A stretch of DNA of 64,000 bases from Chloroherpetonaceae bacterium (GTDB lineage: Bacteria; Bacteroidota; Chlorobiia; Chlorobiales; Chloroherpetonaceae), in NCBI GenBank assembly GCA_028277445.1, contig JANQGG010000005.1:62001-126000 (forward strand). The letters run 5' to 3'. The notes under the pieces were generated by a model. The model did not search any database. It was not told the DNA's origin and worked only from the letters and a program-made list of their open reading frames with translations. This document shows positions 29,276-32,546 of the stretch, one piece after another (the stretch's first letter is position 1; each line of letters begins with the position of its first letter). The position numbers and the translations under genes were made by a program.

Positions 29276-29671
29276 AGGCGCAAAACAATCCCCTCTTTTC
29301 CTTTTCGGATAACGGAATCGAATGCGGCTGGAAAGCAAATCATGTGACAGCCCCGAACTGAATAAAGCGTATTCAAAAGATTTAATTCATATATTTTTGA
29401 AGAGAATTGCTCCGATAAATCAAAAATGACACAATTCTTTTTCAGACATTAACCGCTATTTTTTCGTGATAAACAAATTTTTGGTATAGCATATTTTCCC
29501 GATAAATGCAATTTCGTTTATCCCGATGTTGGCTGTGATTTAAAAAAGTATTCTTCCAGAATTGATTTCTCATTCAATCAATTGTATTACATTATGAACT
29601 GTACTTATATTGAAAAAAATGTGCTATTTCAATTTTTTATTACGCCTTTATTTTAATTATTAAAAAAATAA
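29276..29671. other. AT-rich intergenic spacer, left edge of accessory segment
   Basis: About 395 bp with no gene, tRNA or clear terminator. Base composition drops sharply toward the right, where long A/T runs lead into the AT-rich membrane-protein gene. I searched for a third attC-like site here and did not find one. Confidence 0.5.
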
Positions 29672-30400
29672 ATGGATAGACTTGATTATATAATAGATTG
29701 GTATCATAAAGAGAATGAAAGGCAGAATTCTCTAAATAACTCACTAAATATTCCTATTGGAATACTAACAGGTATCTTTGCTTTAATGTTTTATATGTTT
29801 ACTAGTTTCTCATTTTCAAAAGAAACTAATTATTTATTAGAGTTTTCATTCATAGTATTAATTATTTTATCTATTTTTTTGTGGTTCATAGTAGTTTACT
29901 TCTTGTTTAAGTCTTATAATAATCTATTTAATAATTATGAGTATAAAGCCATTCCATTTCCAACTGAATTGAATGAACAATATGAAAAATTGGAAGCTTA
30001 TGTAATTAAAAACAAAGAATTATTGGATGATAAAACAACAGCTAACTCATTATATGAGAAACAATTTTTGTTAATGATATCTGAATATCTTAATAGAAAT
30101 ATTGAAAATAATGACACAAAATCATGGTACCTTCATTTAGCAAAAAAGTTTCTTTTAGTTTGTATTATTTCAATAATACTTTGTGCTATACCTTTTACTA
30201 TTCATTATTGGTTAAATAAAGAAATTGAAAATATTCAAAAAGTTGAGATAATTAATTTGCCAAAAAAATCAATTATAATTAATAATCTAGATAACACTCA
30301 AAAAAATGAAAATTATGAGCGACAAAGAAAAGAATCAGCAAAAGCCGACTCCACCACCACCACCGACTCCACCACCACCAAGGTTAATAAGGGAAGGTAG
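29672..30400 (+). CDS. AT-rich membrane protein of unknown family, cassette-borne
   Basis: 242 residues. A 26-residue amphipathic start, two adjacent membrane segments (about 28-47 and 54-79), a ~75-residue cytoplasmic or periplasmic helical region, and a third segment (about 160-181). The tail is polar and ends in a threonine/serine repeat where an 18-bp DNA repeat is read. The 2TM-plus-helix layout recalls membrane effectors such as SLATT, but I cannot assign it to that family. Much lower G+C than neighbours, which suggests transfer. A proline-rich ORF overlaps its 3' end in another frame, and an attC-like site follows. Confidence 0.65.
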   Translation: MDRLDYIIDWYHKENERQNSLNNSLNIPIGILTGIFALMFYMFTSFSFSKETNYLLEFSFIVLIILSIFLWFIVVYFLFKSYNNLFNNYEYKAIPFPTELNEQYEKLEAYVIKNKELLDDKTTANSLYEKQFLLMISEYLNRNIENNDTKSWYLHLAKKFLLVCIISIILCAIPFTIHYWLNKEIENIQKVEIINLPKKSIIINNLDNTQKNENYERQRKESAKADSTTTTDSTTTKVNKGR

Positions 30401-30434
30401 TGAGCCGCCAAAAGCACCTAAACCCAAAAATTAA
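30315..30434 (+). CDS. Nested proline-rich small ORF
   Basis: 39 codons from ATG 30315 to TAA 30432-30434, overlapping the last 86 bp of the membrane-protein gene in a different frame. It starts M-S-D-K-E-K-N-Q-Q-K-P and then has P-T-P-P-P-P-P-T-P-P-P-P-R, a hydrophobic L-I-R and a proline/lysine end. The stop lies 14 bp before the attC-like site. It could be a small co-translated partner of the membrane protein. Alternatively, slippage in the CCA-rich repeat could fuse the frames. Confidence 0.4.
   Translation: MSDKEKNQQKPTPPPPPTPPPPRLIREGSEPPKAPKPKN
30348..30383 (+). repeat. Two 18-bp tandem repeats rich in CCA
   Basis: Units 30348-30365 and 30366-30383 both begin ACTCCACCACCACCA and differ in the last three positions. 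Because the unit is a multiple of three, gain or loss changes tail length but not frame; loss of single CCA triplets would do the same. Confidence 0.7.
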
Positions 30435-30447
30435 AATATTAAACTAC

Positions 30448-30579
30448 AGCCAACGGTAGGGCTATAGGCTATGGCAGTGATTGTGCATGCCTTCGTGACG
30501 GATTCACGCTGACTTTTTTCGTCCTTGCGGACGGAAAGTCACTCTGAATCCGCCACTCCACATAGCCAAACCGTTAGCA
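30448..30579 (+). repeat. attC-like recombination site A (132 bp)
   Basis: Outer arms AGCCAAC (30448-30454, R''-like) and GTTAGCA (30573-30579, R'-like). Inner arms GGCTAT (30460-30465, and again 30467-30472) and ATAGCC (30562-30567) are 5 bp from the outer boxes. The centre is a long imperfect hairpin with arms GTGACGGATTCA/TGAATCCGCCAC and an apex CGTCC/GGACG. Order and orientation are those of an attC site behind a cassette gene. The right arm closely matches that of site B. The boxes do not fit RYYYAAC/GTTRRRY perfectly. Confidence 0.5.
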
Positions 30580-30601
30580 TTTATTTGAAAAAGAGCATTG
30601 C

Positions 30602-30627
30602 AATTCTCTCGCAGTTGTGAGAGAATT
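30602..30627 (+). promoter_or_regulatory. Perfect inverted repeat before the NotI-like gene
   Basis: AATTCTCTC (30602-30610) and GAGAGAATT (30619-30627) around an 8-nt loop, ending 15 bp before the ATG at 30643. It may be an operator or an RNA hairpin that limits translation of the endonuclease. Confidence 0.45.
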
Positions 30628-30642
30628 TGAATAAATTTGAGC

Positions 30643-31527
30643 ATGGCAAAAAAAGCATTAAATAAAAGCCCTCTTGTTGAAGTTTTTGGCTTTCCTATTG
30701 AAAATGACAGCTCAAAAGCACAACGGTATCGAAAGCAGAAACTTTGTCCTTACAACAACAAAGTTCCAAACTGCACGAAGGACAAAGCAAACAATCCACT
30801 AGGAGTTTGCAGTGTTTGGCACAATGGAACATCTGTAATAACATGTCCAACCAGATTTAGAGAAGATTGGCTTATTGAACAGGCTGCTGAATTTGCATTT
30901 GGCAAAAAAACTACCTGGACATCCTTGTCTGAAATTAAACTTGTTGACAAAAATGGACAATCTGCGGGCAACATAGACTTTGTTCTCGTACGTTACAACG
31001 ATAAGGGTCAACTGATTGACTTTGCTTCGTTAGAAGTTCAAGGAGTATATATTTCGGGTAATCTTAGAAATCCATTTGAAGCATATATTAAAAAGCCTTC
31101 TAAAAACTTTGAATGGTCATCAGGATATAACTACCCTAAACCAGATTACCTGTCATCATCACGTAAACGACTTATTCCCCAAATGCTGTACAAGGGTGGA
31201 ATTTTTCAATCATGGAATAAGAAACAAACTGTAGCTCTTCAAAAATCATTTTTTGAAACTCTTCCTTCGCTTCCTGCAACCACTAAATCAAAGGCTGACA
31301 TTGCTTGGTTTCTATACGATCTTGCATACGATAAGGAGTCAAAGCAAAACAATCTCGTACTAACTGAAACAGTTTACACTGAATTTGAACCTGCACTATT
31401 AAGGGTCACAACTCCTGAACCAGGCGACATGTTTGACTTGATCAATATTTTACAAACCCGTCTTGACGAGCATTTGGACAAAAACCCACCAGATGCCCCG
31501 TCATTGGAAGACATAATAAGCAGTTAA
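30643..31527 (+). CDS. NotI-family type II restriction endonuclease
   Basis: 294 residues from ATG 30643 (a TTG two codons earlier is less likely). It opens with a segment V-F-G-F-P and then four cysteines at 35, 44, 56 and 68, which match the iron-binding Cys4 motif known in NotI. A PD-(D/E)xK-type active site is visible as Asp112 (N-I-D-F-V-L-V) and E131-V-Q133, with glutamine where most members have lysine, as in NotI. Predicted to cut unmodified DNA at a specific site. The adenine methyltransferase gene starts 2 bp after its stop, forming an R-M pair. Confidence 0.78.
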   Translation: MAKKALNKSPLVEVFGFPIENDSSKAQRYRKQKLCPYNNKVPNCTKDKANNPLGVCSVWHNGTSVITCPTRFREDWLIEQAAEFAFGKKTTWTSLSEIKLVDKNGQSAGNIDFVLVRYNDKGQLIDFASLEVQGVYISGNLRNPFEAYIKKPSKNFEWSSGYNYPKPDYLSSSRKRLIPQMLYKGGIFQSWNKKQTVALQKSFFETLPSLPATTKSKADIAWFLYDLAYDKESKQNNLVLTETVYTEFEPALLRVTTPEPGDMFDLINILQTRLDEHLDKNPPDAPSLEDIISS

Positions 31528-31529
31528 GC

Positions 31530-32405
31530 ATGGACGAACAATTATCAATATTCGAAACCAAACAGAAAAAAGAAACGCCAAAGGTTGTAAATGTGGCTTC
31601 AGTTCCACAGAGAAGTCCATTCAGGTATCCAGGTGGAAAGACATGGCTAATTCCTGTTGTGAGAAAATGGCTGAAACAATCAAAATGTAGCAAAACGTTA
31701 ATCGAACCTTTTGCAGGTGGGGGAATTGTTAGCCTTACCACTGCATTTGAGCATTTAGCTGACAAAATTGTAATGGTTGAACTAGACCCTGAAGTAGCTG
31801 CCGTCTGGGAAGTAATCGTCAATGGTGATCATGACTGGTTGGCAGATAAAATCTATTCGTTTGACCTTACCCCTGAAAATGCAAACTTGATTCTTCAAAA
31901 AGAAGATAAAACGATAAAGGAACAAGCTTTTAGTACCATTCTTAAAAACAGAATCTTTCATGGGGGAATTATTACCAAAGGATCAGGACTAATCAAAAAT
32001 GGTGAAAATGGAAAGGGAATAAAGTCTCGATGGTATCCCAAAACTCTACGAGACAGGATTAAAGCTGTTTACCATGTTAAGAAAAATATGAAATTCATAA
32101 CTGGTGACGCATTTACTGAATTAGAGAAAATCAAGAATGATGTAAATGCATATTCATTCATTGACCCTCCTTACACGATTGCAGGAAAACGACTTTATAC
32201 TCATTTTGAAATAGACCATGACGCGTTATTTGCTCTGACGGCAGAACTTAAAGGGAAGTTCATGCTTACTTATGATGACACTGATGAAATCAGGGGACTA
32301 GCCAAAAAATATAATCTTGACTTTAGGATAATACCAATGAAAACCACTCATCACATTCAAAAGAATGAAATCATCATTTCAGACAATTTTGGATGGTGGG
32401 AATGA
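31530..32405 (+). CDS. DNA N6-adenine methyltransferase (Dam/D12 class)
   Basis: 291 residues. AdoMet-binding F-R-Y-P-G-G-K (31-37) and E-P-F-A-G-G-G (59-65), acidic V-E-L-D-P (83-87) and the catalytic D-P-P-Y (212-215), in the order of the D12 (alpha) class. It should protect host DNA against the NotI-like enzyme in front of it. The first ~28 residues are a variable extension. Followed by attC-like site B 9 bp after the stop. Confidence 0.9.
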   Translation: MDEQLSIFETKQKKETPKVVNVASVPQRSPFRYPGGKTWLIPVVRKWLKQSKCSKTLIEPFAGGGIVSLTTAFEHLADKIVMVELDPEVAAVWEVIVNGDHDWLADKIYSFDLTPENANLILQKEDKTIKEQAFSTILKNRIFHGGIITKGSGLIKNGENGKGIKSRWYPKTLRDRIKAVYHVKKNMKFITGDAFTELEKIKNDVNAYSFIDPPYTIAGKRLYTHFEIDHDALFALTAELKGKFMLTYDDTDEIRGLAKKYNLDFRIIPMKTTHHIQKNEIIISDNFGWWE

Positions 32406-32414
32406 AAAACACTG

Positions 32415-32546
32415 ACCCAACAATGGCTATAAGTAATTGCTTTAGTTGGTTAAGATGAGGTACATTTCTCACTCTCAACAAAAATCTGAAATAACTGAAA
32501 ATAAAAGAATAAAAAACGCCACTGCTCATAGCCCGAACCGTTGTAG
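32415..32546 (+). repeat. attC-like recombination site B (132 bp)
   Basis: Outer arms ACCCAAC (32415-32421, fits RYYYAAC) and GTTGTAG (32540-32546). Inner arms GGCTAT (32425-32430) and ATAGCC (32528-32533). Same length as site A, and the right half (GCCACTGCTCATAGCC, then GAACCGTT) is nearly that of site A. The centre is AT-rich and unlike site A, as expected for attC sites that keep structure rather than sequence. The bracketed unit 30574-32540 would be one cassette. Confidence 0.5.

Follow-up and report, generated by a model that had tools for sequence, protein, structure and literature searches.

The 64,000-nucleotide stretch of a Chloroherpetonaceae genome analysed here, which we call the window, very probably holds a recombinase-less remnant array (CALIN-like) of an integron-like system that is widespread in the phylum Bacteroidota. 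The cassettes are flanked by serB and an epimerase gene, and the layout falls under the CALIN definition, with two sites and no recombinase nearby; neither an attI-like site nor a recombinase was seen in the window. The features are as follows.

29528..29536, + strand: predicted start of cassette 1, G|TTGGCTGT, with the crossover between 29528 and 29529 (9-base reverse complement of the site 1 left box)
29529..30573, + strand: cassette 1, about 1045 bp, with an attC-like site at its 3' end (G|TT rule of 135 site pairs)
29672..30400, + strand: cassette 1 gene, 242 aa (ORF list, family scans)
30448..30579, + strand: attC-like site 1, left box AGCCAAC, right box GTTAGCA, predicted crossover after the G at 30573 (R1 match and fold)
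30574..32540, + strand: second unit (cassette 2), about 1967 bp, with a restriction-modification pair; right end set by site 2
30643..31527, + strand: NotI-family restriction endonuclease, 294 aa from ATG, with a TTG start at 30637 (PF12183, E 1.5e-51)
31530..32405, + strand: D12-class N6-adenine DNA methyltransferase, 291 aa (PF02086, E 1.8e-13; PADLOC methyltransferase models)
32415..32546, + strand: attC-like site 2, left box ACCCAAC, right box GTTGTAG, predicted crossover after the G at 32540 (R1 match)

A preliminary description of this DNA had placed two 132-bp sites just behind plus-strand genes, and both points held. The bounds returned by R1, a site model seeded with 36 copies aligned on the bottom strand, are exactly 30448-30579 and 32415-32546, and the upstream genes end 52 bases (site 1) and 14 bases (site 2) before the AAC of the site. 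R1 scores site 1 at 71.5 bits on the bottom strand and 29.9 on the top, and site 2 at 78.5 and 19.0 bits, a strand preference that is not independent because the model was trained on bottom strands; both window sites were among the sequences that went into it. The right half CGCCACTnnnCATAGCC is common to the two sites, and a window scan found zero-mismatch copies only there. The near-identical right halves and the arms are present as described, but the spacer between inner and outer arms is not uniform, varying between sites and between sides, and the R'-like box GTTGTAG of site 2 pairs with its R''-like box only over GTTG/CAAC. Pairing of this limited extent would follow from the bases after G|TT being part of the neighbouring DNA. 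An exact pattern scan of the same genome, in which background matches dominated, missed site 1 with its 2-base spacer. The bottom strand of site 1 has a fold energy of -34.2 kcal/mol, as compared to -31.2 for the top strand, and folds far better than shuffles (z -6.2). Site 2, whose centre is AT-rich, shows no significant overall fold relative to shuffles (z -0.35), although its arms pair. The preliminary description had proposed a look for extrahelical bases; a G at the expected position on the L'' arm is absent from both window sites and occurs on the expected side in about one third of the 36 seed sites.

Both window sites belong to one covarying hairpin family. Among the 36 copies, 64 two-sided cells of compensatory change were counted as compared to 37.6 in shuffles, with 11 pairs showing two-sided changes, and arm pairing reached 84.9% as compared to 33-52% when the alignment was slid. 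At three positions the bottom strand has a fixed G-T wobble where the top strand has an A-C mismatch. When named genomes were scanned with a pattern, 47 further stretches with the right half came up, of which some were clearly fortuitous matches within genes and were excluded; the carriers are mostly Bacteroidota, including Sphingobacterium, Psychroflexus, Lutibacter, Mesohalobacter, Olleya and many metagenome assemblies. R1 matches about 20 places in the genome from which the window comes, and at least six sites on its contig C6 all share one orientation. In the phylum sampled, R1 sites were detected in 173 of 395 genomes and 99 of 171 genera, mostly as one-directional arrays (e.g. Mesohalobacter halotolerans, L071, and Flavobacteriaceae 14752, L068). 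The full RYYYAAC consensus is found in 24 of 243 sites and GTTRRRY in 25 of 243, the AAC/GTT core having been required by the site search. Further, three IMG/VR viral contigs (L089, L091, L092) carry R1-type sites about 200-400 bp apart, with one gap of about 1.1 kb, and some of these adjoin start codons of opposite-strand ORFs; they are possible phage-borne cassette arrays.

The arrays follow the cassette logic of integrons. When the bases after G|TT at one site were compared with the left box of the next, the mean match over 135 consecutive site pairs was 5.05/6 with 91 perfect pairs, while a site's own following bases gave 2.52/6 and shuffled partners 2.12 +/- 0.11; a few of the loci overlap, so not all 135 pairs are independent. 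The rule fails to some degree in 44 of the 135 pairs, and it fails for window cassette 2. In 116 of 126 cassettes the longest ORF lies on the strand of the site, with its stop a median of 22 bases before the AAC, and the median cassette measures 1171 bp. Cassettes shared between loci whose surroundings differ break at the same point: the first cassettes of loci L190 and L249 are 97.6% identical and diverge on the left exactly at GTT and on the right just after ACCGTT, and those of loci L047 and L082 are 99.8% identical with the right divergence again just after ACCGTT. The latter stretch, of 1069 bp (noted at L047 1090-1222 and L082 4022-4154), occurs both in a small contig attributed to Pseudomonas yangonensis MY50 and in a metagenome assembly from Bacteroidota, and reflects either contamination or recent cassette transfer. 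When only the arms are folded, a comparison that is in part independent of R1 training, the bottom strand comes out as the more stable one at 198 of the 220 sites that gave a decision (p 1e-36). This favours, but does not prove, use of the folded bottom strand as in integrons.

Within the window, the first cassette conforms exactly. The start predicted from the left box of site 1, GTTGGCTGT, is found at 29528 with 0.008 occurrences expected by chance in 3.5 kb, where G|TTGGCTGTG is the exact reverse complement of the left box ACAGCCAAC; therefore, cassette 1 is placed at 29529-30573. Both the integron cassette layout and the status of the AT-rich left gene as a further cassette, which the preliminary description had inferred, are borne out, and the identification of the window sites as integron-type cassette-end sites is supported by these sequence comparisons. 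The 242-aa gene of cassette 1 has no Pfam or PADLOC match, and hydrophobic stretches judged by eye suggest a membrane protein.

The second unit was confirmed as a restriction-modification pair by the matches to PF12183 and PF02086. Its endonuclease is a clear member of the NotI family; the unit differs from NotI restriction-modification in that the endonuclease is paired with a D12-class adenine methyltransferase and lies inside an attC-bounded unit. The proposal that 30574-32540 is a mobile cassette stands for its right end but not for its left junction. The start predicted from site 2 (GTTGGGTCA) was found neither at site 1 nor within 3.5 kb upstream; site 1 is followed by GTTAGCATT, whose six bases AGCATT match the predicted GGGTCA at one position of six. 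Clean cassette status was rejected on this ground, and the unit, with its sound right end and unmatched left junction, perhaps arose by deletion or fusion. The bases after site 2 (32540; GTTGTAGCCA) equal the predicted start of a cassette that ends at the site at L299 8874 on contig C56 of the same genome, hinting that a third cassette may once have lain downstream. Near 19 other loci of the restriction endonuclease, R1 gave one weak site (35.6 bits), and the idea that its homologues are cassettes elsewhere was rejected. In the family-mate G001, a glutamine synthetase gene directly follows serB, with no cassettes at that place; this genome was rejected as an empty-site comparison, as synteny is not kept and hence it offers no true empty site.

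The gene that adjoins the arrays in relatives encodes a XerA-like tyrosine recombinase, which matches NF040815 and TIGR02249 below or near cut-off. A profile search detected it in 116 of 395 genomes, and 76 recombinase loci were examined, seven of which are alignment seeds or come from the same first pass. In all 52 loci with usable sites the recombinase stands at the 5' end of the array, reading in the cassette direction in 44 and divergently in 8, and never downstream. In 25 of 45 loci with a placeable start, the first cassette begins 75-106 bp downstream of the stop codon of the recombinase gene, and an attI-like motif, ..TATAAAcAaG|TT, precedes the crossover in 27 loci, often after an inverted repeat. 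Presence of R1 sites and of the XerA-like gene is strongly associated across the 395 genomes, the relatedness of which was ignored (odds ratio 12.6, p 1e-24). The KGxKDR-to-LRHS distance is 63-71 residues in the array recombinases and 108 in IntI, from which they are separate as IntI forms a clade of its own; they have no insertion of about 41 residues that holds the I2 helix in IntI, and the IntI motif was found in 0 of 76. The solved structures closest to them by sequence and fold are XerA (5HXY, 4A8E) and IntI4 (2A3V), the structure model of one recombinase (pLDDT 76, pTM 0.48) having a catalytic core usable at moderate confidence and serving for the nearest fold only. Many array (A3) recombinases, e.g. 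L190 6734-7864, are extended at the N-terminus by a further domain of about 90-200 residues that matches no Pfam family, and short forms lacking it read away from the array.

The genome of the window itself has no TIGR02249 match over cut-off and no intact integrase. Its contig C57 carries the C-terminal part of a recombinase and, behind it, G|TTATGGGC, an ORF of 339 aa and an R1 site, the left box of which, GCCCATAAC, exactly matches the G|TTATGGGC start. As only this fragment is present, the window is read as a recombinase-less array, and the earlier proposal of a CALIN-type array without an integrase fits. More generally, 77 of the 173 R1 genomes give no recombinase match under the strict cut-off, and 63 lack both the XerA-like gene and IntI at the cut-offs used, which recombinase-less arrays, fragmented assemblies or the cut-off itself may explain.

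Such genomes would also fit an element that gathers after genes without mobilising them, either a REP/BIME-like dispersed palindrome or a transcription terminator, as would the dispersed, palindromic character of the family and its place after stop codons. The preliminary description had named a dispersed palindrome family of Bacteroidota as its alternative, and the distribution agrees with this, but the nature does not, since the copies obey cassette rules. A non-mobilising repeat gives no reason for the junction rule, the shared cassettes with G|TT breaks, the single-orientation arrays or the position of the recombinase in 52 of 52 loci, and we regard this explanation as highly improbable.

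On the integron-like reading, cassettes would leave and enter through a crossover that falls between the G and the TT of the right-hand box (ACCG|TT). The excised circle would carry one site, its left box (xxxxxxAAC) matching the right box (GTTxxxxxx), and the bottom strand would be the one folded and used, as the three fixed G-T wobbles suggest. In complete copies, cassettes would enter the attI-like site, most often 75-106 bp after the stop of the XerA-like recombinase. In the window, off-target insertion or decay of the platform probably left the cassettes between serB and the epimerase gene. From the positional and statistical link we infer that the XerA-like recombinase would perform the cassette reaction. 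It would act on a folded single strand.

The sites could instead be classical attC sites moved by a normal IntI with an I2 helix, now or once present elsewhere in the genome or in relatives, which would make the window an ordinary CALIN. Full-length classical IntI genes do exist in 105 of 395 phylum genomes (e.g. L093-L112), and the R-box logic and G|TT crossover are the same as in integrons. In G001, moreover, four R1 sites lie 4-6.5 kb from a decayed IntI gene and another lies near a second decayed one, and given this genome IntI may use R1 sites too. One of these IntI genes lacks the end bearing the catalytic tyrosine and the other is full of stops (L113 18708-19829 and G001:C1:1688646-1689395), with R1 sites within about 4 kb on the 3' side. 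Against this, the IntI genes of G001 lie at the 3' end and not the 5' end; no R1 site at E <= 1e-4 turned up in 18 IntI loci, each about 20 kb long; and R1 sites track the XerA-like gene and not IntI (odds ratio 0.73, Fisher p = 0.21, relatedness of the 395 genomes again ignored). Classical IntI had at first been favoured as the cognate enzyme from G001, and was rejected as a general rule by the 18 loci and the genome-wide association. In addition, R1 finds no classical attC, and a classical attC model made from seven resistance cassettes, of low sensitivity, has no match in the window; the same model gives weak matches near some phylum IntI genes, which seem to have another type of attC. The attC identity first proposed for the sites is retained in its integron-type cassette logic, but not in a match to the small classical model or in a tie to IntI. 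We consider movement by a normal IntI improbable.

A more serious contender, though still an unlikely one in our judgement, is that the XerA-like enzyme acts on the 130-bp sites as ordinary duplex DNA, as XerC/XerD do with pdif modules, and that the hairpin is incidental. The I2 helix that the enzyme lacks is what docks the extrahelical bases of folded attC in IntI (PMC7790495), few R1 sites have a consistent extrahelical base, and the inverted repeats of the attI-like site resemble a duplex core site. The covariation of the hairpin arms, the G-T wobbles fixed on one strand, which is also the more stable strand in 198 of 220 sites, the length of about 130 bp rather than 28, and the bipartite layout of R-box and inner arm known from attC all speak for the folded site. 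The array recombinases are closest to XerA (archaeal 5HXY and 4A8E; NCBIfam NF040815) by sequence and fold and share its catalytic spacing without the insertion, whereas XerA and XerCD resolve chromosome dimers at a single dif site and the array gene heads cassette arrays, is often N-terminally extended and is present beside housekeeping Xer genes. In the pdif modules of Acinetobacter, genes are likewise moved as modules by Xer-type recombinases (XerC/XerD), but the sites there are short duplexes in alternating orientation, unlike the covarying hairpins of about 130 bp in one orientation described here.

The likeness to integrons and CALINs extends to one-ORF cassettes with a 3' hairpin site, G|TT crossover, R-box pairing, bottom-strand bias and one-directional arrays headed at their 5' end by a recombinase and an attI-like site. 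In contrast to integrons, the array recombinase lacks the IntI-specific I2 insertion and mostly reads in the cassette direction, and the R1 sites are of conserved length (mostly about 130 bp), mostly without a consistent extrahelical base, rarely fit RYYYAAC/GTTRRRY fully and are missed in the window by the small classical attC model. Published work regards the I2 helix as a requirement for cassette capture that no other protein shares (PMC7790495), and IntI is defined by this additional domain (PMC9668308). Because the array recombinase has no such insertion, the system is therefore integron-like and fails one defining feature.

Bacteroidetes have been credited with few integrons, only In0 at first and then a single complete one, that of Salinibacter ruber (PMC9024848), and taxon-specific attC models left them out (PMC8352920). 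No description of such arrays was found in the open-access PMC literature that was searched. We think it reasonably probable that the phylum carries a second widespread class of integron, with folded attC-like sites, an attI-like platform and a XerA-like recombinase without I2, which would represent either gene capture that arose independently of IntI or a survivor from before I2. If so, capture of genes at folded sites would not need I2, and these arrays would offer a living comparison for the origin of integrons. They would also form a large reservoir of mobile genes, here including a restriction-modification pair, in about 40% of the sampled genomes of the phylum, which searches based on IntI or classical attC may miss.
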